Source: an uncultured bacterium (GTDB taxonomy: Bacteria; Patescibacteriota; Patescibacteriia; UBA1558; GWA2-36-10). From it: DNA of 15,414 bases. The notes under the pieces were generated by a model that was given only the letters and a program-made list of their open reading frames with translations, made no database searches and was not told where the DNA came from. Shown piece after piece: positions 1,041 through 15,414 of the stretch; position 1 is the first letter of the stretch; each line of letters opens with the position of its first letter. The stretch spans positions 1 to 15,414 of the forward strand of contig CALDOH010000120.1 of the NCBI GenBank assembly GCA_937912185.1, in the 5' to 3' direction. A program made the position numbers and the translations under genes.

Positions 1041-1526
<486 letters not shown>

Positions 1527-1537
1527 TTAATGATTTA

Positions 1538-2005
1538 TTAAAGGTCCTTGTCTAAAATTTCATCCAATTGCTTATCAATGTCATCTAAATTAACCTTCAC
1601 ACCTTCCCGTTTCTTTTCAATTTCAACCGAAGTTTTTTCTGATTTAAGCTCGGGTCTTATTGCTGGAGCAGCTGCTTTTGGCTTGCCTGTGCCAGATTTT
1701 GCTGCTTTGGCACTTACTTTGTCCTTTTTGATGAGCAAATGACGCAAGATGTTATTGTTGTGCTTCAACTTTACGTCAAAATCAGCCAGACCTTCTTTTT
1801 CCTCAGCTTCAAATTCCAAGAAAACATAAAAGCCATGCTTTTGTTTTTTGATAGGATATGCCAATTTCTTGCGACCAATGGAATATGGTTGCTTGGTAAT
1901 ATTGGCATTCAATTTTTTGAGATTATCCAAAATTTCCTGTTCAACAGTTTTGTGTTCTGTCTCAGGAACATTTGGACCAATAATAAATGATAGTTCGTAC
2001 TTCAT
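1538..2005 (-). CDS. rpsF: Small ribosomal subunit protein bS6 with C-terminal tail
   Basis: S6 pairs with S18 in the 30S platform. Residues 1-94 form the ferredoxin-like S6 core: MKYELSFIIGP at the start, IGRKKLAYPIKKQKHGFYVF at 43-62, and the RHLLIKKD helix end at 88-95. The remaining ~60 residues are an extension that is first Lys/Ala/Pro rich (95-125), then charged, and ends in an amphipathic acidic helix (VNLDDIDKQLDEILDKDL). The total of 155 is longer than the ~95-135 common in model bacteria. It is the first gene of the operon, with a promoter and structured leader upstream. S6 could, with S18, repress its own operon through that leader. No Shine-Dalgarno is present. Confidence 0.96.
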   Translation of the reverse strand: MKYELSFIIGPNVPETEHKTVEQEILDNLKKLNANITKQPYSIGRKKLAYPIKKQKHGFYVFLEFEAEEKEGLADFDVKLKHNNNILRHLLIKKDKVSAKAAKSGTGKPKAAAPAIRPELKSEKTSVEIEKKREGVKVNLDDIDKQLDEILDKDL

Positions 2006-2013
2006 AGTTTGAT

Positions 2014-2072
2014 TTAATTACCTTGAGTTTTGACCCAAGGGTTCCGCCTTTTAACGGAGCGTGGTTAATTAA
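2014..2072 (-). promoter_or_regulatory. Structured rpsF leader, candidate S6:S18-responsive element
   Basis: In the minus-strand leader, TTAATTA (2072-2066) can pair with TAATTAA (2020-2014), closing a domain with two inner hairpins. The first pairs TCCG with CGGA around a loop containing AAAAGG (about 2058-2043). The second is the 8-bp hairpin at 2040-2021 with loop CAAA. A CCG trinucleotide sits in the first hairpin. Known S6:S18-binding leaders before rpsF use a CCG element recognised by the ribosomal protein pair, so autoregulation is plausible. The pairing is read by eye and no covariance was tested. Confidence 0.45.
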
Positions 2073-2095
2073 ATAAGTTATAAGAAACTTTCGAA

Positions 2096-2124
2096 ACTCT
2101 AACATAAATGCCTGGACAAGTCAA
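2096..2124 (-). promoter_or_regulatory. Predicted promoter of the rpsF-ssb-rpsR-efp operon
   Basis: The minus strand shows -35 TTGACT (2124-2119), a 17-nt spacer and -10 TAGAGT (2101-2096), with an upstream TG that makes an extended -10. Transcription would start near 2089, leaving a leader of about 84 nt before rpsF. Confidence 0.7.
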
Positions 2125-2140
2125 TATTTTCTAAAATACA

Positions 2141-2169
2141 TTGCTTTAAATTACTTTTTAAACTATCAT
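2141..2169 (+). promoter_or_regulatory. Predicted promoter of the TRM11-like gene
   Basis: The plus strand shows TTGCTT (2141-2146), a 17-nt spacer and TATCAT (2164-2169). The expected start point is about 2175-2177, at or next to the ATG at 2177, so the transcript would be leaderless or nearly so. It is divergent from the rpsF promoter, and the two -35 boxes are about 17 nt apart. Confidence 0.45.
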
Positions 2170-2176
2170 ATAGGAT

Positions 2177-3379
2177 ATGAAATATATATTTATATTGGGT
2201 CAGTCACCTGACTTGGCAAAACAAGAAATACTAAGTATTTTGGCTAATGATAGCGAAAAAATTATCACAATTAGCCAAAATTTTATTTTAGCCGAAAGTG
2301 ACAAATCAAGTGACCAGTTAATTAAAATACTGGGCGGTACCATTAAAATAGCCCTCCTAGTAGACAACTTGAAAGATCTGGGTGAATTAGACGCCGGCAA
2401 ATGGGAATCTTACTTGACCAAACAACTAAGTGAGGAGAAGAAAAATCACTTTGGTTTTAGTATTTATAATGGCTCTGCCAAAGAATACCAAAAAATTTCT
2501 CAAGTAGCCCTACAGCTAAAAAGAAAGCTTAAGGACAAATACCGAGTTCGTTTTGTTACTAGCAAAAGAGAAGAGCTCTCCTCTGTTATTGTCGCTAAAA
2601 ATGATTTACTGGGAAATGAACTAATCATCATAAAGCACTTGGACGAAAATAATACAGAATATTTATTGGGGCTAACCCAAAGCGTCCAAGACTTTGAAGC
2701 TTATGGTAAACGTGATTTTGATAGACCTGGTAGAGATAGTAAATCTGGTATGCTACCACCAAAGCTAGCTCAAATGATGCTCAATCTAGCTGGGCCAAAC
2801 AGAAAACTTAATTTGCTCGATCCCTTTTGTGGTTCTGGGACTATTTTGCAAGAAGCATTACTCATGGACTATCAAACAATCTATGGTAGTGATCGAGAAG
2901 AAAAGGCTATTGCTGATAGTCGGACTAATATCGATTGGCTAAGGAAAAATTTTCCGACAAAATCCAGAGTAGAAATTGAAAAAATAAACGTCAAAAATCT
3001 AAATGAACACTTTAAAGATAAGAAAATAGGCTTGATTGTTACCGAACCATTCATGGGTGATGCCCGTTTTGTAGTTAAGCAAAGTAGGATTGAAGATTTA
3101 TATAAACTAAAAGCAGATTTACAAGAACTTTATAGTGAGAGTTTTCATCAATTCAAAAAAATACTAACAAAAAATGCTAAGGTAGTCTTTGTTTTCCCCA
3201 TATTCAACATCCGTGGTGAAAAACTCTACACCCTCAACAAAAAGACATTAACCGATATTGGCTTTACTATAATAAAACCGGATATAAAATCCGGAAATTT
3301 ATCACCCGATGGCAATATAATATACAATCGACCTGGACAAAGGGTGGAAAGAGAAATAAGTGTTTGGCAAAATAAATAA
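2177..3379 (+). CDS. TRM11-like SAM-dependent RNA methyltransferase
   Basis: Likely a tRNA guanine-N2 methyltransferase of the TRM11/Trm-G10 group; the exact target base is inferred. The N-terminal ~160 residues resemble a degenerate THUMP-containing RNA-binding half. The linker DFDRPGRDSKSGMLPPKLAQ (180-199) matches the family's Arg-Pro, then pro-Lys-Leu-Ala, signature. The Rossmann domain has SAM motif I LLDPFCGSGT (213-222) and an acidic motif II at GSDREEKA (237-244). The catalytic motif IV is TEPFMG (289-294) rather than the usual DPPY/NPPY; Pro291 and Phe292 keep the shape, but Glu replaces Asp/Asn and the second Pro is lost. The protein is 400 residues with no signal peptide. An AGGA sits only 1 nt before the ATG, too close to be a normal binding site, in keeping with a leaderless transcript. 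It stands alone between divergent and convergent operons. Confidence 0.75.
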   Translation: MKYIFILGQSPDLAKQEILSILANDSEKIITISQNFILAESDKSSDQLIKILGGTIKIALLVDNLKDLGELDAGKWESYLTKQLSEEKKNHFGFSIYNGSAKEYQKISQVALQLKRKLKDKYRVRFVTSKREELSSVIVAKNDLLGNELIIIKHLDENNTEYLLGLTQSVQDFEAYGKRDFDRPGRDSKSGMLPPKLAQMMLNLAGPNRKLNLLDPFCGSGTILQEALLMDYQTIYGSDREEKAIADSRTNIDWLRKNFPTKSRVEIEKINVKNLNEHFKDKKIGLIVTEPFMGDARFVVKQSRIEDLYKLKADLQELYSESFHQFKKILTKNAKVVFVFPIFNIRGEKLYTLNKKTLTDIGFTIIKPDIKSGNLSPDGNIIYNRPGQRVEREISVWQNK

Positions 3380-3402
3380 TCCCGCCTTAGCGGGATTTTT
3401 TT
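3378..3402 (+). terminator. Terminator between convergent genes, possibly bidirectional
   Basis: An 8-bp stem AATCCCGC / GCGGGATT with loop CTTA (3378-3397) is followed on the plus strand by seven T (3396-3402). It overlaps the last two bases of the methyltransferase stop codon. On the minus strand the hairpin lies just past the stop of the 420-residue gene and is followed by a looser T-rich stretch (ATTATTTATTTT), so it may stop both converging transcripts. Confidence 0.85.
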
Positions 3403-4663
3403 ATACACTATTTGCCCAAACTATATTTTCTCCGTTGACCTGCAACTCACGCCACTTGAGTTGTCCATCACTCTCATCAAGATAGATTATCTGCCCAGAA
3501 CTAGAAACCAAGTTGGTCAAATAAAACGCCCACAAAGTAGCTTCTTGGCTATCCAAACGCAACTTATCTTCCAGCATCATCTCTAAAAATAAACGCCTAA
3601 GCAATAATTTGTCTACGTTTTTTACCAACCAATTATCTAAATCCCCTGCATATTTACCACCATAGCGGATATTAACAAAACGCTTTAAAATACTAAAAAA
3701 CCTACTATCTTCCTTAAGCATCATATCAAGATGCTTTCTTTCTACTAGCAACTTAAGACAAGCTAAGGTCTTTTCCTTGTCTTGTAGGCCGATCGCCTGC
3801 CATAATACATCCCTTACTTTTTTGATATCATTATTTGCCTCAGACAAAATAAAATCTTGAGCCAATATCTTTGTCTCCAGAGAAAATAACTTTTGCTTGA
3901 ACTGCTCTACAATTTGCTCAATGTCTATTGCCTCCTCGGTTTCCTCATTCTCTTCTTTGAGTGCTGGCTCAGAGATAATAAGTGTACTACCATCAAGATG
4001 GAAATCCATCTCCACCTTATCATCATAAGAAATTATAAAAAAACGCAAAGATTCTTTTTCTGCTGGTCGCAAAGATAACACATTTGGACTTTTGGCCAGA
4101 TACTTAGCCCTATCCAAAGCATTGTGAAAACCTGCTCCTAAAAAATGAATATAATCAGTCAACCAATTATCAACACTAGGACTAATTGATTTGCCTTCTT
4201 TGTCAGTAATCTTTCTAGAACTCAAACGAAGAGTTTTGAAGTCGTCATATTCTAACAACATATGTTCCAAAACACCCGTAGCTCTGCCCGGAAATACTTT
4301 TGCTTGTAAAACTTTTTTATGAATATGTCTAGGTTTTGGCACTTTACCACCCAAACGCAATACAAGTCGATGAACAGTCCCCAGATGATCTTCTAGGGGC
4401 CACAATATATTTCTGGCAATATACAAACTAATTTCTCTTAAATCAAGATACTTGGCTCTTTCTATTTCTTCCAATCTTTGTGGCAAGTCCAGAGGCTCGA
4501 TTTTTTGTAAATATATATCATCTAATAAATCCAAAACAAACTCAATCTGTTTACGATCAAGATAATATTTTTTGAAGAGATCTTTATTAGCCTGAAAAAT
4601 TTCCTCGCTAAAAATAAGCTCTTTTACCTCTTCTGGTAAATCTTGTATTTTATCAAAAGCCAT
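3401..4663 (-). CDS. Conserved-looking soluble protein of unknown function, 420 residues
   Basis: I do not recognise an enzyme family. The protein has no signal peptide and no membrane segment, so it is probably cytoplasmic. Residues 1-70 form a helical unit with the pattern LPEEVKELIFSEE ... KYYLDRKQIEFVLDLL ... PLDLPQRL, resembling a short helical domain that recurs in Patescibacteria proteins (recalled, not searched). Residues 75-235 are mixed, with a basic patch (GKVPKPRHIHKKVLQAK, 106-122) and strands. A Glu-rich linker (235-250) leads to a helical second half, and the last 40 residues look like beta strands (QIIYLDE ... LKWRELQVNGENIVWA). It is the last gene of the long operon, 26 nt after the VirB6-like gene, and its start has the A-rich context AAAAACAAAAATG with no Shine-Dalgarno. 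Context suggests a cytoplasmic partner of the membrane or secreted components. Confidence 0.8.
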   Translation of the reverse strand: MAFDKIQDLPEEVKELIFSEEIFQANKDLFKKYYLDRKQIEFVLDLLDDIYLQKIEPLDLPQRLEEIERAKYLDLREISLYIARNILWPLEDHLGTVHRLVLRLGGKVPKPRHIHKKVLQAKVFPGRATGVLEHMLLEYDDFKTLRLSSRKITDKEGKSISPSVDNWLTDYIHFLGAGFHNALDRAKYLAKSPNVLSLRPAEKESLRFFIISYDDKVEMDFHLDGSTLIISEPALKEENEETEEAIDIEQIVEQFKQKLFSLETKILAQDFILSEANNDIKKVRDVLWQAIGLQDKEKTLACLKLLVERKHLDMMLKEDSRFFSILKRFVNIRYGGKYAGDLDNWLVKNVDKLLLRRLFLEMMLEDKLRLDSQEATLWAFYLTNLVSSSGQIIYLDESDGQLKWRELQVNGENIVWANSV

Positions 4664-4689
4664 TTTTGTTTTTATTTCTCAAAATATAT

Positions 4690-7131
4690 CTAAGTAAGAT
4701 CTATGCCATGTTTTTCTTTCAAAGCATCCAACAAAGCGGCACCTCTTCCACCAGCAGATGTAGCTACTGTCAGTAGCTCTGTTTTTATTTTATCGAGCGC
4801 TTCAGGTCCAATTGAAGCTGCCTGATCAGCTGTTAATTTGCTAACCACAAAGTTAGCAAAGGCAACCTTATCCAATGCAGCTCCGGTTGGTGTGAAGGCC
4901 TGCTCAGCATAAGGTAAACTATCTTTAGCTAAATCTTCTCGAGTAGCACCAGCGGCAACCTGCACATCAAAACTCTGCTGTATTTGAGCATTATTTACAT
5001 ATTTTGAACCTTTCTGGGTCAATACATCAAGATTTTTACCAGCTCCCATTTGCGCACTGACTACAGCTTGTTTTTGACTGTCATCTGTAGATCTAGATAA
5101 AAATTGAGTGGTTTGTTCGGAATTTAAATTTTTAGCTATAGCCAAGAAAGCCTCATTGTCTACTGTTGCTCCAGCAGCATTAGTCCTTGTAGGCTTCATC
5201 TTGACCAGAGCATCAATGTCAAATTTTGTCTCGGCTCTAAATTTAGCCACTGCTTCACGCTGAGCCGGTGGAGCAGCTGACATAACTGATGTAGCATGTT
5301 CAGCAGAGTTGTTGGCCAAGAGCATCATACGACCAGTACCAACTGAGCCTTTTTGCAAATTACCAGCTCCATCAAGAACGTCCCTTTTCTCAGGAGTCAA
5401 AGATGTATCTGCGCTAGGATCATAAGCAGCCAAAGCCTCCATAAAGCTATCTTTATCTTTGGACGACATACGATCTACAGTAGTTTGCTGAGCCTTAGGA
5501 TCTTGCTGCAGAAATACCCTGACGGCCGCTTCAGCATTTTTATCCAAACCAGTAGCCGCATCAACGGCACCAGCAAAACTCATCTTTGAGAAAGTATCCT
5601 CTACTCCATTTTTATCAACATTAGCCTGCACTGACTCTGCATCATTAGCCGTAGCAACTCTAGCTTGTAATTTAGCAGCATCCTCAGTATTTCCCTGAAA
5701 TTTAAGTGCCTCGATACCTTTTCTAGCTTCATCAGGCGTAAAAGCAGCTCCACTAGCCAACTTCTCTTTGGCAACCATAGCATCACCAATCTTGCCCCCC
5801 TTGCTCTGGGCATAGGCCAATGGATCTCTGACGCCCTCTTTGCCTTTTTCAGCGTGTTCACTCTTACGTTGTCGTCTACCAAGCTCGGCTGCTTCCAATC
5901 TTGCCCCCCATTGTTTGACAACACCTGGACCATGCTGAGCCATCTGAGAGCCAATAACACCTCTACCTACACGGCTAAGACCAGCCTTCATCATACCTTC
6001 GCCGCTAGTCCCCTGCCAAGCAAGCTTAGCTCCGCCAGCAACCCCTTTGCCAGCCAAGCGAGCCGTACCACCAGCAGCTCGTTTACCCATTCTAGTGGCC
6101 ATTCCTTTAGAAGCTGCCACGGCTGTGCCAGCTAAGGCAGCACCAGCGACGCCTGAAGTCTGAGTCATCTTGATGCCAGCAAGTAAAATGGCTATGCCAA
6201 CTATAAAATTGATCATGTTAGCAGGGGTGGCTGCTTCACTAACAGAGTTGACTTGTGCACCGTTATAATCATTAGCGCCCTCACCAAAGCTTTCGTTGAT
6301 TGTACCATTACCAACAATAGCAAAGGCTAGCCATAGGAAAAAAGCTAAGGCTGGACCAGCAAACAAATTGCTACCTAATTGCTCAGACCATTGACTGAAA
6401 TATTTTTCTGATTTAGGAAAAGTAAATGATACAAAGGCCAAAGGAGATAAAACTATTAGTATCCATAGGGTCACAATCCTCATAACCAAGATAGCTATCA
6501 GAGCCATTATTACAATTACTACTATAAACAACATAATCGCTGCTAGAACAAACATTCCCACTTGATTCCAGTCAGGAGCGCCAGTACCTACACTCAAAAG
6601 CTTTTGTAGGCCTAGGGCAATAGTTAGATTGCCAGCAGATAGAGATTTTATTACATTGACGAAAGTCAACATAATAATCTGGGAAAAATCAATTAATACA
6701 CCAACAATGGTTCGACTAAAGTTGATAAGAATAGCCATAATAATAAACCTCTTGAGTAGCTGTCGATAACCATAACTCTGCATTTTCAAAACTGTAGCAA
6801 AAGCAATTATCAACAAGATGACAATGAAAAACATATTACAAAGATTACGTACGGTCGTCCAACCAATAATCACCCCCGCTTCTCGGGTAAAATTATTGTA
6901 TTGAGCGATAATAGGCAAAAGCCACAGTTCCAATTGTATCACTTCTTTAAGTGGTACTATTACACCAGCATAAACTGCCTTTACTATAAACTCTGCCACA
7001 ATACTATCAAAGGCAGCAGCAAAAACAATTTTAGGAACTGCTAAAAATGTGATTACTAAAATTGAAAGCAATAGAGTTGACTTTCTTCTCCTTTTATAAA
7101 ATAAACTTTTCATATTGTATTTAATTTTCAT
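4690..7131 (-). CDS. Polytopic VirB6/TrbL-like membrane protein with long soluble tail
   Basis: Likely an inner-membrane channel component of a type IV secretion-like system; this is inferred from topology. A basic N-region (KRRRK, 13-17) and a hydrophobic stretch (18-38) ending in VFAAA look like a signal peptide or first membrane helix. Further hydrophobic segments lie near 52-77, 97-116, 129-158, 190-217, 218-238, 255-275 and 304-322. Between them is the FPKSEKYFSQWSEQLGSNLF loop (238-257), typical of VirB6/TrbL-like proteins. A Gly/Ala-rich stretch (326-375) with several Lys/Arg follows. Residues 400-813 are soluble, Ala-rich and mostly helical, far longer than the tail of ordinary VirB6. 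The start overlaps the upstream giant gene by 11 nt. Met7 (ATG at 7113-7111) is an alternative start that would avoid the overlap and still keep the signal segment. No ATPase or other secretion gene is visible to confirm the system. Confidence 0.7.
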   Translation of the reverse strand: MKIKYNMKSLFYKRRRKSTLLLSILVITFLAVPKIVFAAAFDSIVAEFIVKAVYAGVIVPLKEVIQLELWLLPIIAQYNNFTREAGVIIGWTTVRNLCNMFFIVILLIIAFATVLKMQSYGYRQLLKRFIIMAILINFSRTIVGVLIDFSQIIMLTFVNVIKSLSAGNLTIALGLQKLLSVGTGAPDWNQVGMFVLAAIMLFIVVIVIMALIAILVMRIVTLWILIVLSPLAFVSFTFPKSEKYFSQWSEQLGSNLFAGPALAFFLWLAFAIVGNGTINESFGEGANDYNGAQVNSVSEAATPANMINFIVGIAILLAGIKMTQTSGVAGAALAGTAVAASKGMATRMGKRAAGGTARLAGKGVAGGAKLAWQGTSGEGMMKAGLSRVGRGVIGSQMAQHGPGVVKQWGARLEAAELGRRQRKSEHAEKGKEGVRDPLAYAQSKGGKIGDAMVAKEKLASGAAFTPDEARKGIEALKFQGNTEDAAKLQARVATANDAESVQANVDKNGVEDTFSKMSFAGAVDAATGLDKNAEAAVRVFLQQDPKAQQTTVDRMSSKDKDSFMEALAAYDPSADTSLTPEKRDVLDGAGNLQKGSVGTGRMMLLANNSAEHATSVMSAAPPAQREAVAKFRAETKFDIDALVKMKPTRTNAAGATVDNEAFLAIAKNLNSEQTTQFLSRSTDDSQKQAVVSAQMGAGKNLDVLTQKGSKYVNNAQIQQSFDVQVAAGATREDLAKDSLPYAEQAFTPTGAALDKVAFANFVVSKLTADQAASIGPEALDKIKTELLTVATSAGGRGAALLDALKEKHGIDLT

Positions 7132-10100
7132 AAACTATCACCCAACCATCAAATATTTCATATTCATACTCTCCCCAATTATCCTCAAGTCTTACATTTG
7201 GTTTATAGCAAGAAGCATTGGATATCGTTGGCTTAGCATAAGATAGCCCCTCTATGGTGATATTGGTACCATCGCATAAATCGCTTGGATTATACAAGTA
7301 GGTCTTATAAAATACTTTATAACCCTGATGACAAGCGCCTTCGGTACCACCAAATCCTTGGAGGCTATTAGGTACACCAGGCATCTCCATCTCTGGATTA
7401 CAGACTGGCAAATTATTTTGATATTTACCTGTATTACCAGTTGATGCACCATCACCCCAATACATCATCATATTCCTAATAGGCATATGATCTGGATGAG
7501 CGTGATAGAAAAACCTAGTAGTAGTAAAGACTGATCCGCCACTACCAACTATACTTCCGTTAATTTCATTGTTGACGCTAAGACCTTGCACTACATTGCT
7601 GGATGCATCATAACACAAACCACTAGCACAAACTGCCAGCACCCTTGGTGAAGAATAATAGTTACCAACTGCTGGTCGTGCATAGTCTGGCCAGAAAATT
7701 GTAGTTCCAGCTGGTCTAACATACTGACTACCATCCCACAACAGAGAATATGATTCTCTAAACAAATGAGCAATACGATCCCGAACAGAAAGGTCATTGT
7801 ATGTTTCTGCCCCTGGAGCTGTAAGTGGATTTATATTATTGCCCCAGCAACTCCAACCAGCGTTGTTAATACAACGACAAGCCGCGCCATTACAACCAAA
7901 GAATGGTACTGTTTCAAGCGGTACATTAAAGTTTACACTTTCTGATGGTAGCCTAATCTGCACTTGGCTGGTGACGTTTACCAAAGAAGTTGGATAATAT
8001 GATCCACCAAAGGCATAACCAATGGTAGTAGTAGCCAAAACTGGACCAGCTGGTGTAGATGATGGCGTCAAGATATAGCTATAATGAAGCTCTGCTCGCC
8101 AAGCAGCCGGTGCACTTAGAGAGGTTGGATCATTAAGAGAATATAATGATGAAGAATACGGAACTCCATTTACAGTAGATGAAGCAGTATTGCCATACCA
8201 AAAGGACCAAGTTGAAGTAGCACTATAGTCATAGGTATCTTCTCGGGAAGCCCACCAAATATCAGTTCTTACCTTTGACTCAGGGTCATCACCAGTTGGA
8301 TGAAGCTCAATTAAACGATTACAAGACTGATAACAACCTGCTTCATCTCCCCTATCATTACAGTGAGTGGCTGGTACTACTTGAGCCGGATAACCAGCGC
8401 CTCCATAAACATAATAATTATAGGATAATGGGTTACACAATCTTTCAGTAGCGGTATTTGCTATTTGGTGCTGATATTGGTTGCTAGCATTACCTGGATC
8501 CCAACAAGTGCCAGCTATAGTAGTCGTTGAACTGGTTGGCATTTCAATAAACTGACCACCAATAATACCACCACCAGATGAATTTACACCTTCATCAAAG
8601 AAATAAAGCTGAAGAGTGCCATCAAACAAAGAATTCAAAGTAGCTACTGTGGTAATCGGGCTATTCAGGGCTACACCAATAAAATCAGTTGACCTAAATA
8701 ATGAATCAGTATTAACACAGGGTGTTGTATCATCATTCAGACAGCGAACAGCTTCATTTCTAATGATTGTTGCCAAGCCAAGACCAGTGGCATAATTATG
8801 GCCACCATCACTGATAGGGTCAACTGCTCCATAGACATTATAAGTTGAACTGTGCAAGAAACGCTCTGTCAACAAAGCCCTGGAACCCTCATCTTCTAAA
8901 GCAGCTGCTCTTATCTTTGAACCAGCGGGCACAACTACCAACTCGGAACAGCGCAAACCAGAAGAAGTGGAAATAGTAGCGCCACAATATATTCTATCAG
9001 TTTCAGTAGTAAAGTCTGTTGAAACTGCACAAAGTTGAACATAATTTCCATAAGGATCTAGATACCCAGCTGTATCATAATTGTTGTATAGACCCTGACT
9101 AGGTACGGCTACATCTTGAACTGGATACCAATTATTACAATAATGAGCATAGTTGTTATCATCAGATTCAACTGGTGTATACCAATCTTGTTCATAACAA
9201 ATACCTGGCCAATTAATGTAAGTCTCTATCTTTCTCACCGCGTCACACTTACCATCTGGCGGGAATGAAGGTCCTGGAGCCGGACCACAATTGACATCTC
9301 GCTCACAAGGTGAACCTACCACTGGGTCCCCTATACAAATTTCAAAATCATCTACAATGGTAGTATCTGGATCATCATAACAATATTGATCACCTGGACC
9401 CAAAATACCCGAGGCATCCATAACTCTAGAACAGGTGCCGGGATGAATTGGGTAATCTTCGTCTATTTGAGTTGGGTGGTCTGTCGGATAATAAAGTATA
9501 TTCTCTCCATATCCATAAGTCACCTTTTTATAACCAAACTCACATCTATCTCCATCGGTATAACACAAGTTAGCACTACCATAGCCTAAGGTTCTTTCAC
9601 CGGTAGAACTTTTAACAGAAATTGGGAAAGGAGAGTCATATACAGAATAACCACGAGTAGCAGCCGGAACTACATAAGATTGACGACTATAGTCAGGTGT
9701 TATCCAGCAAATTTCGTCCTTACAAAGACCAGTATTTATCCACTGATAATAACCATTTTCAGAATTCCAACCATCTACTGGAAAAGCACTACAAGCTGTA
9801 AGGTCGGTGCTTGGTGTGCCATCAGCATTGTAGATACCTGTCTCACAAATAGTACTAGTTGATTTGTACATTAATTTGAAATCTGGAATATCATTAGAAC
9901 CGAAATTATAAACACTAAGTTCGCCAGCTGGAAGTAGATTTGGTGCTGAATACCCTGTAAAATCCCAGTCAGACCACTGTAGATGATCGTTAGGACCATT
10001 GGCTCTAGTCTGGTAAACACGATGAGTTAATGGAGCAATTGGAGTATTAGAATCCCAAGTAGCACATTTACTAATGCCGCCACGAGAATCATATTCAATA

Positions 10101-13100
10101 CAAGTGTCTAGCTCATCACAAATATTATCATAGGAATCTGTTGCTGGATTATAAACACTATTTGAAGCCTTACAAGCTAGCCACTCAGAACACTGCCTAC
10201 TCTTTCTAACTTTTATTAATTTATTTGAACTGCAGCCTGAATCACCAGAATCACAAGTTACTGGATTAACTGGTTCATCAAAAAATGTATTGTTGTCATA
10301 AGTAGAGGTCGTATGATAGACAGTAGTAACTTGAGTATGCTCTGGGTCCCAGTTATTTTCTTCATAAAGAAGCACGCAGCCACTATTTCTATCAACCTGC
10401 CCATAGCAAGAAGTCTCATCTATATTTTCATTTTCATAATAATAGTATGTCTGACATGGTCCACCATACAACCAACCAGTAGCCAGACCAGCTGATATAG
10501 CACCAGCACAATCCAAGGCCCGATTATTGTATATTGGATAACCCACACACCTGCCCACCGTAACATCGGTATCTGTTTCTTCAACTCTACAAGTAGTTGC
10601 CGTCATCTCATATGGATCCACTGGGTCCTTATAGGCAGTGCAAAGATTCTTATCAACAGGACAATGTGCTGCCCAATAAGTACCACTAGGATTAGTTGGT
10701 TGACGCGGTATCAATCCGCTATAAGGCAATTCAAAATCTTCTGGTGTATAAGTAAAATCCCCGTTATCAGCACAACCTATTGGATCGTCAGCAGCCAACG
10801 AATCATTTTTGAACCAACCAGTATATGGAATCTGCTCACCGGTAGTAATAATATTAACTATGGCGTTCCTCTTGAAAGTACAGGATATACTTCCTGGATC
10901 TTTAAAGAAATAAATACCCTTGTCTGAATTATATTCTTCACAGTATAAAGCATCAGACGTACATAAGGTAGTAGCATAAAGATCTGGATTGTTTAATCTA
11001 TGTACCGTCTCATAATCACTTATAGCGTCAGTTGATCTATTTACCTCTGGTAAACCGAGCATTTGGCAACCCTTTTCACTGGCTGCACAATACTTACCAG
11101 CGTCAGGAACCAAATAATCTAGATTGTCTTCTGGAACTGTTAGTTCTGAGTAGTCACCAATATTGAATGTTTCCTCAAAAGGATTAGTAGAATTATGAGT
11201 ATCAATTACCGGGCTACAGCCAATTGCCTCTTGACGACATAGCTTGTCAAATGATTTTAAATCATAGTCCTTTCCGTTCAAATCAATATATGATTGACAA
11301 CCTAGGTGGTAACCTACATAAGGATCATCACAACTAAGTGGTGTCTCCCATGAATCTTTTACTAAGTATAAATTCTCACTGACCTCTTTTAAATTTACGT
11401 TATCAAAATATACCCGATCAGCGGCATCAATAATAAATTCTATCCTAGCCTCTGCCATAGCTATGCCTGCTATATCAGCTACTGGAATATTAATCTTATA
11501 AGACCTCCACTCACCACCCTCTAAATTGTTAAAATCTCTAATCGGATATGTAGTAGCTAAATCTCTAAAACGTAGCTCCATAAAGTCCACATTACTATTG
11601 GCCTTCATCCACCAAGAAAGTGTGTACTCTCTATCTTCTCTTAATATATCAGCTATATCACGACTAACATCTGTCAAAACGCCAGCTACGACCGTAAACT
11701 CCATAGAATGACCGCCATTCATAACTGACTCTTCTGATACATCCAGACTACCAAGACTTGAATCCCAAGGTGAGTAGCTTCCTTCAAATTGATCCTCAAA
11801 AACCGTCCTTAGATTATTACCAGCGTTACCCTTATAAATACGGCAACCATCAAATTCAGCTGAACAAGAGGTGCTCTTATTTGGGATAGCCTTATAATTT
11901 GAGCCCGTTAAAGTACGACGATAGTCATGACAATCATTACTAGCAAATATTACCCTATCCTGTAGACGCCAATATGAATAACCATCTAGATCAAAAAATT
12001 CTCGACAATTAGAATTGACCCCTGGGTCGTCATCAGGATTAGCTGTTTCTGGCCCACAAGCAGCGTGAGGATGCCCAGCCATACCATCAATACAATTACT
12101 CGTACCTGGATCAACGTTGGTACAAGGTGGATAATGAGTGTTGATTGGAAGACCTACATCATCATTACTAATCAAAGCATTCCAGGTCTTTAGAGCATAA
12201 CCTGAGACATCGTAGCCTTCCCATGTATAAAATATGGTACCTAAATCTTCAGCAACACATTGTCTAAGATAAGAATAGTATTCTTTACCTTCACCACCTT
12301 CAAGAACAGTGTCTAGATTGGTGAATTCTTCACAACCGACTTCATTGGCTGCACAAGAATCAGCAGTATCTGGTATCAAATGATAATAGTCTACCGTCTG
12401 ATTACCCTCGATAATATCAAAAATATCTGGCTGTTCGGCAAAGGTAGCATAACCAACACACTCAGCTGGACATAGATCGTCTTGAGTAATAACCCCTGGT
12501 ATCAAAGTACCACCGTTGACAGGATTGTAACCCTGACAACCAACCTCATCTTCCGTACACATAAAGGTACGACCATTCATATATATTTTAGCGCCAGCGC
12601 CATAAGGTGTAAATCCTGAATAAGAATAATTTGGTGCTTCTGTTACTTCCACCTTAAAGTTATCCATGTAGTGATCATCTGATGAACCAAAACTGGCTCC
12701 AACACATATAGTACAGGCAATACTATCTCCAGTATTAAAAGTACCACCAAACCTATTATAATTTACTGGGTCAAGATCCGCCCAAGGTAAAAAAACGTTT
12801 GCCTCGTCATATATACCAGCAGTATTAAGAGCGGCATTGTCATTACTGATGGCCATAGAAGAGTCTGGTGAAAAAATACGACCATCTTCTGTGCCACTCT
12901 CTGTATGACAGCTATCAACCATTATCCTGGCAGCGCCATCTCCTGGCCCTCTTTTGGCAGAAACAGAAACAGTATAATTGGTATTTGAGATAACCGCACC
13001 CCTCCAACAAGTAGCCTGATTAACCGCAGCCGCATCAACTGTTCCACGAATCGCCTCTGAACCATTTACACCCTCACCGGGGGCAATCAAACCTTGATAA

Positions 13101-15187
13101 AAACCATCTGGTCTAGTTGCTACAGCATCATCATTTATTTCAAAATCACCATTTGGTAATATGTTAGCTCTAGTATTTGGTTTAAATGTTATATATTCAT
13201 TGCAACCACCACTACTGGCATCACAAGCACCGCTACTCAAAAACAAATCATCTTCATTTAGTGGAGAGGTAGCCGGCGGTAAAGTCATGTCTTCTTCTAG
13301 TAGCCAGTCTTCATTTTCGTCATACCTCTGAGCATAACGACGGCAGCCAGCTTCTTCAGCTGTACAATAATCTAGAGTCCACTCTAAATAAGAATTAGTA
13401 CCAAATTCTTCATTTTGTAAAGTTAAGCAACCAGAAAACAAATCTCCATCTTCGCAAATGTCCCCATCAAAACGCCAGATATTTTCTGTGCGACTACAAT
13501 AGCCAAACTCTCCGCCAATACAATTGCCATCATCATCTACCCGTAGACATACCTGTGGGTCAGCACAATAAGTCTGACGAGAATTACTATCGGAAGACTG
13601 CAGGGCTGGACCGTTTACCATAGCATTACACCTAGTTGGTGGGACCTCTAAAGTCCAATCTGGATCAACTAAGTGATAATATGGGTTATGATTAAAATCA
13701 TATTGAGGATCAACGCTATATGCGCAATCTCCACCATCTTCAAAACAATCAATCGCCTCTTTTATAGTGACTGCTGATCCGGGCGAGCTACGCATAGCTG
13801 CTAGCTCTATACCAGCTGGCAAAATATTGGCTTTCCTTAATTTAGTCAAATCTCTATGACACCAACCATTACGATAACAATCCTTTTCATTATTTCTAGG
13901 ATCGTCTGGTCCAATCAATACGGTATTAGGATCAAGCAAGCCATCGTCTATGGCCTCTCTAATAGTTTTGTTGCTAACTATGGCTGCCAAAAACTTTTGA
14001 TCAATCACGCAATTATCTAAACTTTGAAAATCACTCTCACCAGGACAAATAACAAAGTCCGCGATGAAGCTATAATTTTCAACTCCCTTAAACTCCATGG
14101 CCGTAAGACTTTTGAAGACGTTATTCGGAATATTACCAGACTGATTATCATACGCTCCCCCCCGTGCATTCTTAAGAAAATTATCTCTTACACCGGGGTT
14201 TTCAAAAGATTTATTCAGGGCCAACATACCTTTATCAAAATAAACTTTCATTAATTTTGAAGATAAGGTATTTAAAAACAAATTACCAGCCTCAGCTAAA
14301 ATAGATTTCATTTTCATAGGGTCCTCGCCCTCTGCAAAATATTTCATAGTGTCCCCTGCCACAGCTGCATTCCATTGTTCATCTGACATATTTAAAAGTG
14401 TACTACATGGTGTCTTAATCTCCTTGGTAATAGTAGTCTCTTTATTCAAATAGCCTTTACAAATTTGTATTTGAATCTTTTTGGATTCTTCTGCAGTCAA
14501 TTCTTCTTCTTTTAATTTGTCATACAACGCTTGGTATTGAGCACCAGCACTTTGTTCAAAAATACCAGTAAAGACGTCCATAAAATTATTGTAGGCCAAA
14601 GATTTGTTTGATTCTCTAGAGCCTACTTGCAACATACCCCTTAGGGTATTTCTATAATTTTCTTCTGCAAAACGACCAGCTAGACCTTCCCACTGTTTTA
14701 AAACATTACTTACATTACATTTAGGCTTAGGTGGGTCTACTTGATCTAATAGACCAAGGGTAAGACTTATTTTAAGATCGATATTAGGACTACAAAGATT
14801 TATTCCTAGTTTATTCAAATCCAATTCAGTGGTAAGTGAACCTAAAAATTCACCCGCAGCTGCATTCCCAGCACTACCTATAGTTTTACCTATGGGTAAC
14901 TTATCAAATAACGGTTTACCACCAGCTGCATTATTGGCAATCGCATCAGCTAAACTATATGCCATAGAATTGAGGAACATACGAGTAGTATTGACGGCAA
15001 CCGTTCGAACAATTGACTTCTTCCAATCTTTAACAACACCTTGAATTTTTTCCCAAGTCCATTTAGCACCATTAATAGCTACTACTCCTGGCGAAAAAGC
15101 CTCTGTTTGTTGAGGTCTGTAAAACACCGGCACAGATATCAAGGCAAGCAAGCTGACTACGACTAGAATTTTTTTGTAAGTGGCCAT
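7121..15187 (-). CDS. Giant secreted Cys-rich surface protein, 2688 residues
   Basis: Probably exported and surface-located; function unknown. An N-terminal signal peptide (KKILVVVSLLALISVPVFY, cleavage likely after TEA at 28-30) precedes a helical region (about 35-345). Around C132 and C157, with an L-K-I-S-L-T-L strand between, this region recalls N-termini of other large exported Patescibacteria proteins. From 381 on the protein is Cys-rich: about 98 cysteines by hand count, an even number. It has twelve C-x6-C pairs between 481 and 1882, many as C...GC-x-x-Tyr/Phe. Two jelly-roll domains (about 675-848 and 1128-1268) look like carbohydrate-binding modules. The last third (about 2100-2688) is Ser/Thr/Tyr/Gly rich and holds a PKD-like WGDG segment near 2577. 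No C-terminal anchor, sorting signal or membrane helix is seen. The 8-kb frame is intact. It starts 31 nt after the preceding gene and overlaps the VirB6-like gene, so both are probably made together and work in one apparatus. Confidence 0.85.
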   Translation of the reverse strand: MATYKKILVVVSLLALISVPVFYRPQQTEAFSPGVVAINGAKWTWEKIQGVVKDWKKSIVRTVAVNTTRMFLNSMAYSLADAIANNAAGGKPLFDKLPIGKTIGSAGNAAAGEFLGSLTTELDLNKLGINLCSPNIDLKISLTLGLLDQVDPPKPKCNVSNVLKQWEGLAGRFAEENYRNTLRGMLQVGSRESNKSLAYNNFMDVFTGIFEQSAGAQYQALYDKLKEEELTAEESKKIQIQICKGYLNKETTITKEIKTPCSTLLNMSDEQWNAAVAGDTMKYFAEGEDPMKMKSILAEAGNLFLNTLSSKLMKVYFDKGMLALNKSFENPGVRDNFLKNARGGAYDNQSGNIPNNVFKSLTAMEFKGVENYSFIADFVICPGESDFQSLDNCVIDQKFLAAIVSNKTIREAIDDGLLDPNTVLIGPDDPRNNEKDCYRNGWCHRDLTKLRKANILPAGIELAAMRSSPGSAVTIKEAIDCFEDGGDCAYSVDPQYDFNHNPYYHLVDPDWTLEVPPTRCNAMVNGPALQSSDSNSRQTYCADPQVCLRVDDDGNCIGGEFGYCSRTENIWRFDGDICEDGDLFSGCLTLQNEEFGTNSYLEWTLDYCTAEEAGCRRYAQRYDENEDWLLEEDMTLPPATSPLNEDDLFLSSGACDASSGGCNEYITFKPNTRANILPNGDFEINDDAVATRPDGFYQGLIAPGEGVNGSEAIRGTVDAAAVNQATCWRGAVISNTNYTVSVSAKRGPGDGAARIMVDSCHTESGTEDGRIFSPDSSMAISNDNAALNTAGIYDEANVFLPWADLDPVNYNRFGGTFNTGDSIACTICVGASFGSSDDHYMDNFKVEVTEAPNYSYSGFTPYGAGAKIYMNGRTFMCTEDEVGCQGYNPVNGGTLIPGVITQDDLCPAECVGYATFAEQPDIFDIIEGNQTVDYYHLIPDTADSCAANEVGCEEFTNLDTVLEGGEGKEYYSYLRQCVAEDLGTIFYTWEGYDVSGYALKTWNALISNDDVGLPINTHYPPCTNVDPGTSNCIDGMAGHPHAACGPETANPDDDPGVNSNCREFFDLDGYSYWRLQDRVIFASNDCHDYRRTLTGSNYKAIPNKSTSCSAEFDGCRIYKGNAGNNLRTVFEDQFEGSYSPWDSSLGSLDVSEESVMNGGHSMEFTVVAGVLTDVSRDIADILREDREYTLSWWMKANSNVDFMELRFRDLATTYPIRDFNNLEGGEWRSYKINIPVADIAGIAMAEARIEFIIDAADRVYFDNVNLKEVSENLYLVKDSWETPLSCDDPYVGYHLGCQSYIDLNGKDYDLKSFDKLCRQEAIGCSPVIDTHNSTNPFEETFNIGDYSELTVPEDNLDYLVPDAGKYCAASEKGCQMLGLPEVNRSTDAISDYETVHRLNNPDLYATTLCTSDALYCEEYNSDKGIYFFKDPGSISCTFKRNAIVNIITTGEQIPYTGWFKNDSLAADDPIGCADNGDFTYTPEDFELPYSGLIPRQPTNPSGTYWAAHCPVDKNLCTAYKDPVDPYEMTATTCRVEETDTDVTVGRCVGYPIYNNRALDCAGAISAGLATGWLYGGPCQTYYYYENENIDETSCYGQVDRNSGCVLLYEENNWDPEHTQVTTVYHTTSTYDNNTFFDEPVNPVTCDSGDSGCSSNKLIKVRKSRQCSEWLACKASNSVYNPATDSYDNICDELDTCIEYDSRGGISKCATWDSNTPIAPLTHRVYQTRANGPNDHLQWSDWDFTGYSAPNLLPAGELSVYNFGSNDIPDFKLMYKSTSTICETGIYNADGTPSTDLTACSAFPVDGWNSENGYYQWINTGLCKDEICWITPDYSRQSYVVPAATRGYSVYDSPFPISVKSSTGERTLGYGSANLCYTDGDRCEFGYKKVTYGYGENILYYPTDHPTQIDEDYPIHPGTCSRVMDASGILGPGDQYCYDDPDTTIVDDFEICIGDPVVGSPCERDVNCGPAPGPSFPPDGKCDAVRKIETYINWPGICYEQDWYTPVESDDNNYAHYCNNWYPVQDVAVPSQGLYNNYDTAGYLDPYGNYVQLCAVSTDFTTETDRIYCGATISTSSGLRCSELVVVPAGSKIRAAALEDEGSRALLTERFLHSSTYNVYGAVDPISDGGHNYATGLGLATIIRNEAVRCLNDDTTPCVNTDSLFRSTDFIGVALNSPITTVATLNSLFDGTLQLYFFDEGVNSSGGGIIGGQFIEMPTSSTTTIAGTCWDPGNASNQYQHQIANTATERLCNPLSYNYYVYGGAGYPAQVVPATHCNDRGDEAGCYQSCNRLIELHPTGDDPESKVRTDIWWASREDTYDYSATSTWSFWYGNTASSTVNGVPYSSSLYSLNDPTSLSAPAAWRAELHYSYILTPSSTPAGPVLATTTIGYAFGGSYYPTSLVNVTSQVQIRLPSESVNFNVPLETVPFFGCNGAACRCINNAGWSCWGNNINPLTAPGAETYNDLSVRDRIAHLFRESYSLLWDGSQYVRPAGTTIFWPDYARPAVGNYYSSPRVLAVCASGLCYDASSNVVQGLSVNNEINGSIVGSGGSVFTTTRFFYHAHPDHMPIRNMMMYWGDGASTGNTGKYQNNLPVCNPEMEMPGVPNSLQGFGGTEGACHQGYKVFYKTYLYNPSDLCDGTNITIEGLSYAKPTISNASCYKPNVRLEDNWGEYEYEIFDGWVIVYEN
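7283..7510 (-). other. PKD-like segment near the C-terminus of the giant protein
   Basis: Residues about 2560-2635 contain PIRNMMMYWGDGAS followed some 40 residues later by GYKVFYKTYLYN. The order 'hydrophobic strand, WGDG, ... Tyr-rich strand' is that of PKD-type Ig-like folds of extracellular proteins. The spacing is irregular and extra cysteines (2596, 2619, 2638) intervene, so this is tentative. Confidence 0.3.
11384..11806 (-). other. Second jelly-roll (CBM4/9-like) domain of the giant protein
   Basis: Residues about 1128-1268 run from VFEDQFEGSYSPWDSS through YTLSWWMKAN (1188-1197) and WRSYKINIPV to RVYFDNVNLKEV (1258-1269). An opening 'F-x-x-x-F/E', a central Y-x-L-S-x-W-x-K-A strand and a final Y-F-D-N-V-x-L strand are the hallmarks of the CBM4/9-type beta sandwich that binds polysaccharide in exported proteins. 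The stretch has no cysteines, unlike everything around it, which supports an independent fold. Confidence 0.55.
12644..13165 (-). other. First jelly-roll (CBM4/9-like) domain of the giant protein
   Basis: Residues about 675-848 open with NILPNGDFE, continue with YTVSVSAKRGPGDGAARIMV (738-757) and close with HYMDNFKVEV (839-848). 'N-L-x-P-N-G-x-F-E' at the start and 'x-D-N-x-x-V' at the end are typical of CBM4/9-like beta sandwiches. Four cysteines (727, 760, 825, 828) sit inside, suggesting disulfide stapling. Ligand unknown. Confidence 0.6.
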
Positions 15188-15218: not shown

Positions 15219-15414
15219 CTATTGACTAGCACCTATATTCCCCATCAATTGATTGCCAATATCAAGTAATTCCTCATCACTAAGGCTATTAATCTGATCA
15301 GAACTGGCTCCTGGTTGGCTTAATAAAAAATCTCTCACCTCCTGAGGTGTAATTTGACTAGTGTCTGTAGCATCTACTATATCCGTTTCTTCCGATATAG
15401 CCTCATAGAGATTA
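15219..15414 (-). CDS. Unrecognised acidic protein, C-terminal 64 residues only
   Basis: An open frame enters from the right edge and ends at TAG (15221-15219), 31 nt before the giant gene. The visible 64 residues are acidic and look helical: ISEETDIVDATDTS is a likely disordered acidic linker, followed by ITPQEVRDFLL (21-31) and INSLSDEELLDIGNQLMG (41-58). There are no cysteines and no membrane segment. It is the most upstream visible member of the long minus-strand operon. I do not recognise the family. Coding is supported by the uninterrupted frame and by the close packing with the next gene. Confidence 0.65.
   Translation of the reverse strand, partial: NLYEAISEETDIVDATDTSQITPQEVRDFLLSQPGASSDQINSLSDEELLDIGNQLMGNIGASQ

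Follow-up and report, generated by a model that had tools for sequence, protein, structure and literature searches.

A giant cysteine-rich protein of exported type heads the prgI-virB4 cluster in much of a class of Patescibacteria

The giant gene and its product

The window, that is, the whole stretch of DNA analyzed here (15,414 nucleotides), is contig C120 of an 866-kb genome in 163 contigs that is 89% complete. In the order of minus-strand transcription, it carries the end of U1, the giant gene, a gene of the VirB6/TrbL type and G3 (Table 1). Past G3 lie a methyltransferase gene (UPF0020) on the opposite strand, four ordinary genes, which by eye we take to be rpsF, ssb, rpsR, and efp, and finally, at positions 1-132, the start of G3b. 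In locus L034, the copy of U1 gave a match to TSP3_bac under the cut-off.

Table 1. Features of the window in the order of minus-strand transcription; segments of the giant protein follow its gene.
Feature	Position	Strand	Basis or remark
U1, last 64 aa (C-terminal)	15219..15413	-	one-TM protein with DxDxDG repeats, 5' of giant
Giant Cys-rich protein, exported type, 2688 aa, 98 Cys	7121..15187	-	ORF list, homologues, class-wide profile search
Signal-type N-terminus, about aa 1-31	15095..15187	-	basic then hydrophobic, without lipobox; hydropathy 2.06 over 19 aa from residue 7
Helical head, about aa 33-371	14075..15091	-	homologous to smaller slot proteins beside VirB6 in some other classes
Small conserved domain, well predicted, about aa 372-510	13658..14074	-	pLDDT blocks 69-96 over model residues 331-480
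Cys block 1, about aa 511-664	13196..13657	-	Cys 520-662 invariant in 25 sequences
CBM-like jelly roll 1, about aa 670-857	12617..13180	-	
Cys block 2, about aa 861-1120	11828..12607	-	GCEEFTNLD and TWEG motifs; among best conserved stretches
CBM-like jelly roll 2, about aa 1121-1280	11348..11827	-	sequence only: sub-cut-off PF02018; second A3 profile match in window
Cys block 3, about aa 1281-1720	10028..11347	-	Cys conservation and identity to relatives
Variable stretch, Ser/Thr-rich later on, about aa 1721-2507	7667..10027	-	poor prediction in long parts
PKD-like C-terminal domain, about aa 2509-2688	7124..7663	-	
VirB6/TrbL-type polytopic membrane protein, 813 aa	4690..7131	-	ORF list; PF04610 in relatives
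G3, 420-aa protein, often 3' of VirB6	3401..4663	-	profile matches in 49 genes of 77 loci
G3b, first 44 aa	1..132	-	resembles intact G3b of L034

Searching 5.8 billion proteins gave 42 matches, query counted, with lengths of 1494 to 3904 amino acids; the shortest is named partial. The few relatives named beyond "bacterium" are Patescibacteria (Komeili-, Buchanan-, Uhr-, and Kerfeldbacteria). Since the frame is conserved in these relatives, the giant gene is a real gene, and a chance reading frame is ruled out. The preliminary description of the window had read here one intact exported-type frame of 2688 residues with about 98 cysteines, beginning with a signal peptide and ending without an anchor. 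The frame is confirmed by the ORF list, the homologues and the class-wide profile, and both ends were borne out: next to the hydropathy at the N-terminus, a hydrophobic segment lies within the first 80 residues in 72 of the 75 relatives whose start is complete, while none of 61 relatives has a hydrophobic segment or an LPxTG motif in its last 100 residues. Internal hydrophobic segments, which count against an exported stalk, occur in eight of the 61.

These 61 relatives, whose reading frame ends inside the locus, have a median of 2940 amino acids and 110 cysteines; the set includes a few frameshift pieces, down to 1403 amino acids. One ORF in the family loci encodes 4254 amino acids (L105), and a frame of 26,141 amino acids in one relative was discarded as an artefact of masked bases. 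In locus L035 (positions 1362-9418), the giant is split, owing to a frameshift or a sequencing error, into overlapping ORFs that encode 1290 and 1403 amino acids.

The cysteines are both conserved and patterned. In a set of 25 sequences, 52 of the 98 are kept in at least 90%, and the spacing C-x6-C occurs 13 times in the giant (shuffled sequences: mean 3.6, maximum 10 in 300); alignment A1 was too heterogeneous to be scanned for patterns. The number of cysteines is even in 48 of the 61 relatives (P 4e-6, with kinship not corrected for). The same genome encodes a DsbA-like protein whose N-terminus is hydrophobic and which carries a CPYC motif. VKOR was not found there and is present in 61 of 144 genomes of the class, so that disulfide formation is not assured and a role of VKOR as class-wide partner of the giant is unsupported.

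No Pfam or NCBIfam family matches the whole protein, a possibility that the preliminary description had set against its own reading, and the C-terminal half has no whole match among solved structures. The helices of the head are predicted at low pLDDT, and the head model is accordingly of low confidence. The small domain behind it is 42-83% identical to six relatives. A domain of the CBM_4_9 type was found by sequence or fold match: the first jelly roll shares its fold with CBM families 4/9, 16, and 22, and the second gave a PF02018 match of 14.6 bits at residues 1129-1201, below the cut-off of 25.9. Carbohydrate binding is the predicted function of both jelly rolls. Matches of the first jelly roll to toxin, tailspike, and glycosidase chains reflect the common CBM fold and have no bearing on toxicity. 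The variable stretch is 10-36% identical to relatives P0006, P0010, P0014, and P0019, has pLDDT values below 50 in long parts and contains 30 Ser/Thr within residues 2301-2400. The C-terminus probably adopts a PKD-type fold. Acidic residues outnumber basic ones.

Genomic context and distribution

We kept 77 loci from named records out of 206 relatives, called their genes with our own greedy ORF caller and labeled them with self-built profiles; the labels leuS, rsmA, and sua5 are our assignments by recognition. The recurring order is leuS - (MFS, sua5) - rsmA - U1 - GIANT - VirB6 - G3 (- G3b) - PrgI - TrsD-like - VirB4. U1 lies within 1.5 kb upstream of the giant in 69 of 73 loci with enough upstream sequence. 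No partner of the giant is more constant, and U1 is present even where VirB6 does not follow downstream. Among 54 loci with at least 2 kb of downstream sequence, VirB6 follows within 1.5 kb in 30 and anywhere in the fetched flank in 41; seven of the 13 loci lacking it in the fetched flank are named Uhrbacteria. The VirB6-like family itself matches PF04610 in eight of 28 members (best 9.1e-8), the copy in the window giving no match. Coiled-coil proteins were also matched by the VirB6-like profile, mostly through its C-terminal half, and were set aside.

In the lineage of the window, the methyltransferase and ribosomal genes interrupt the cluster, which then resumes with G3b - PrgI - TrsD-like - VirB4 (L034, L041, and L044); L036 has the same interrupted order as far as its fetched DNA reaches. 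The G3b gene cut at the left end of the window seems to continue on contig C91 (locus L111), which starts in the later part of G3b as judged by the intact copy of L034. An exact overlap between the two ends was looked for and none was found; it is the split gene that suggests the join, across a possible gap. After G3b, C91 encodes PrgI (PrgI/VirB3 family PF12666, 32.5 bits, above the cut-off of 27), a 226-aa protein, a 640-aa ATPase identified as VirB4-type by its TraG P-loop match (94.5 bits), two small membrane proteins, and a 406-aa protein. Further on lie a pilin-like protein whose tail is rich in cysteines (PF18895, 26.4 bits, just below the cut-off of 26.6) and a helicase, which we take to be recG. 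The 226-aa protein stands in the TrsD-like slot between PrgI and VirB4 and matches only TraC_F_IV, under the cut-off; the name TrsD for proteins of this type is carried over from a survey of Patescibacteria T4SSs (PMC12102498).

Two further proteins of C91 deserve mention. The T4SS_pilin-like protein (L111, 6981-7853; 290 aa) carries its Cys-rich tail behind the pilin segment, and Cys-rich exported modules may recur in the T4SS cluster. Directly 3' of VirB4, a protein of 185 amino acids with a single hydrophobic segment at its N-terminus is encoded (L111, 4590-5147); Pfam gave nothing useful for it, and it is possibly a VirB8-type part. According to the available part of the survey, VirB8 homologues are few and almost confined to ABY1, and coupling-protein genes near virB4 as well as relaxases are few in Patescibacteria (PMC12102498).

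To judge linkage by contig, we took in 126 of the 132 genomes with the giant, 125 of the 130 with VirB6 (leaving out G099, G290, G314, G338, and G372), and 80 of the 129 with PrgI. In 66 of the 114 genomes with both listed, giant and VirB6 share a contig, and in 64 of these 66, VirB6 lies on the strand of the giant and 2.9-16.2 kb downstream of the point where the N-half match ends; in G411 and G334, the two genes are far apart and on opposite strands. Different contigs carry them in the other 48 genomes, which may reflect fragmentation or real distance. In at least 55 genomes, PrgI comes after the giant, on its contig and strand and at a distance of 7.4-36.6 kb; the number is a lower bound because only 80 of 129 PrgI genomes entered the count. 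In G312, giant, VirB6, and PrgI each occur twice on contig C2 with identical scores and on opposite strands, the giants being about 47 kb apart, as the result of an inverted duplication or an assembly fold-back.

The link of the giant with the T4SS is well supported. Its pairing with a VirB6-like gene had been noted in the preliminary description and is confirmed by the overlap of 11 bases between the giant stop and the VirB6 start; from this one neighbour the giant had been guessed to be an exported part of a type IV-like apparatus, a reading now supported by the same-contig linkage and by the head homology elsewhere described below. The opposite case, namely homologues mostly away from secretion genes, was checked as well: where this could be judged, they lie mostly in the T4SS locus (the 64 of 66 genomes above; PrgI, TrsD-like or VirB4 downstream in 19 of the 54 loci).

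The family is spread over its class, which we take to be ABY1 (Patescibacteriia) from the names of the relatives and our knowledge of the taxonomy. An N-half profile (A3), built from 67 of 76 placed loci after nine had been dropped for length (A4: 50 of 75), matches 132 of 144 genomes of the class and 119 of the 125 that are >90% complete and <5% contaminated. VirB6 and PrgI are about as frequent (130 and 129 of 144), and PrgI was found in none of 14 control genomes. In a draw of 192 genomes from the phylum, A3 matched strongly in all 12 genomes of the class and weakly in 34 of the 180 others, 30 times in the CBM region, which is a common domain, and four times in the head (G086, G089, G115, and G129). 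Head and Cys blocks together were found in no genome outside the class in this draw. With the single giant protein as query, 22 of 286 genomes were found to have it, all from its own class. Records titled Methylomirabilis and Paceibacter (L078 and L095) also carry the family and are probably misnamed bins.

Head and slot proteins of other classes

VirB6 matches were found in 128 of the 192 genomes, and 20 of these loci, all from other classes, were inspected. In 15, rsmA lies upstream, and in 17 the gene directly 5' of VirB6, that is, in the slot of the giant, encodes a protein of 286-1041 amino acids with at least one hydrophobic segment. An alignment of five such slot proteins (A6) matched the giant head with an hhalign probability of 96.7 (E 4e-10), a value biased by the choice of the five members, after reading, for their likeness to the head; the one negative control, VirB6 against the same giant profile, gave 0.04.

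As a less biased test, every gene of at least 150 amino acids in the 20 loci was scored against the head. The slot gene ranks first in six loci (E 1.7e-11 to 6.8e-4), with hhalign probabilities of 97 (L118), 86 (L112 and L114), 76 (L117), 46 (L113), and 27 (L123); in L118, the head-like gene is the second before VirB6. The other 14 loci gave no head homology, their best gene scoring E 7e-3 or worse and not regularly being the slot gene. All four head matches outside the class sit directly upstream of the VirB6 match of their genome; G086 and G089 overlap with the 20-locus set, and G115 and G129 are new.

By these profile comparisons, the giant head has homologues among the small slot proteins of some other classes; elsewhere, the slot protein seems to have diverged beyond detection or to be another protein. 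Head homology reaches into the slots of other classes, while in the 192-genome draw head and Cys blocks were combined only in the giant's own class. The head accordingly seems to be an old part of the T4SS locus, to which one class later added the Cys-rich stalk; the Cys blocks, the CBM-like domains, and the PKD-like end all look like additions specific to this class.

Two loci of other classes show different arrangements. In L118 (10597-13830), a head protein of 280 amino acids and a separate protein of 791 amino acids with 12 cysteines are encoded by neighbouring genes before VirB6, which looks as though each half of the giant had a gene of its own. L116 (9493-15372) encodes, three genes before VirB6, a 1959-aa protein with one hydrophobic segment and no detectable homology to the head; large proteins in the slot may have evolved repeatedly.

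Proposed function

The giant is of exported type, lies between U1 and VirB6 and heads the prgI-virB4 cluster in much of the class. That it is part of the T4SS appears likely. We propose, with a probability of roughly 0.62, that it is the enlarged version, specific to this class, of a T4SS-locus protein that occurs in several Patescibacteria lineages, and that it forms a Sec-exported, disulfide-stapled surface stalk that binds the host. Sec would export the protein, as suggested by the hydrophobic N-terminal segment of nearly all relatives. Its head would stay at the membrane with VirB6 and U1, and the DsbA-like enzyme would close the disulfides outside, giving three rigid Cys blocks. Jelly rolls and the variable outer part would stand off the cell and bind host glycans or proteins, thereby docking and stabilizing the T4SS on the host. 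Surface location, glycan binding, and VirB6 contact are predicted, as is the host-contact role.

The giant would thus do the work of a mating-pair adhesin. PrgB of the Enterococcus plasmid pCF10 is such an adhesin of Gram-positive conjugation, and TraN of F-type plasmids is a Cys-rich mating-pair protein of about 600 amino acids. Like PrgB and other Gram-positive conjugation adhesins, the giant is a large exported protein of a T4SS locus with a proposed contact role; with TraN it shares the richness in cysteines, the export, and the encoding by a T4SS as a contact protein, but it is about four times longer, and the outer-membrane setting of TraN is not expected in a monoderm. As far as compared, the giant appears unrelated to both: neither Pfam (E ≤1) nor eight A2 members (E ≤0.01) gave a family of the PrgB or TraN type, at a level where remote homology is possible. 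In contrast to other CBM/PKD proteins, its domains stand among Cys-rich blocks, and no glycosidase domain was found.

Patescibacteria are known to possess an MPF-FATA-like T4SS, with PrgI, VirB4, VirB6/TrbL-type, TrsD-like, and pilin-like genes together as described here; in its available part, the survey names no giant protein in the position preceding VirB6 and reports that no PrgB-type adhesin was detected (PMC12102498). FhaB-type proteins of more than 4000 amino acids in Patescibacterium danicum are likewise very long, come from the same class and have been proposed to function in adhesion; that survey, as far as available, kept only proteins above this length and had the P. danicum ones from two genomes only (PMC11809585). 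The giant family, class-wide and usually in the T4SS locus, is a different set. Our literature search, which left subscription journals mostly aside, found no publication on it. In the related lineage of Southlakia epibionticum, according to the available part of the study, T4SS genes are essential for epibiotic growth; essential adhesin-type proteins are encoded outside the T4SS cluster (SEML1_0006-0019) there, which counts against the contact role of the giant (PMC10633639).

The giant might instead be a general cell-surface or S-layer-like protein that is no part of a machine and has a conserved neighbourhood by chance. In favour of this, the giant still follows rsmA and U1 in loci that lack VirB6 downstream, and the neighbourhood includes genes with no relation to the T4SS, among them rsmA and leuS; in the Foldseek output for the C-terminal half, an S-layer chain from Deinococcus ranks second, with a weak E of 2e-3. 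We nevertheless consider this unlikely in view of the VirB6 start overlapping the giant stop, the same-contig linkage with VirB6, and the head matches outside the class, all of which adjoin VirB6 in the 192-genome draw. Still less probable is a DNA-uptake apparatus using T4SS parts, in which the stalk would capture DNA or cells. The presumed recG behind the T4SS cluster on C91 would fit, as would comF, recG, and radA, which the accessible part of the survey places near the T4SS in ABY1 (PMC12102498), but CBM-like domains and acidic excess suit glycans or proteins better than DNA, and S. epibionticum is, by the available parts of two studies, viable without comEC while its T4SS is essential (PMC10633639, PMC12857230). 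Delivery of the giant into the host as a huge T4SS substrate, which its size, modularity, and place in the locus might suggest, is highly improbable given an N-terminal segment that points to Sec, dozens of conserved cysteines that suit the outside of the cell, and a presence throughout the class not expected for effectors.

The proposed host-binding stalk can be taken one step further, to a tentative model that we consider possible but doubtful. The giant would be the host-docking stalk of the T4SS itself, with its head in the VirB6 platform and its disulfide-stapled shaft replacing the outer parts that monoderm T4SSs lack. The fast-changing jelly rolls and outer part would set the host range of the ABY1 epibiont, and the shorter slot proteins of other classes would represent the same part at its most basic.

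Nearly all members of the class, tiny and probably host-dependent bacteria, carry the giant, and its gene usually lies in the T4SS cluster. For the way in which ABY1-type Patescibacteria recognize and hold their hosts, a class-wide, T4SS-linked giant is a named, testable candidate for the missing host-reaching part, and the shorter slot proteins extend the question of host contact to other classes, some of which may perhaps be culturable or engineerable.
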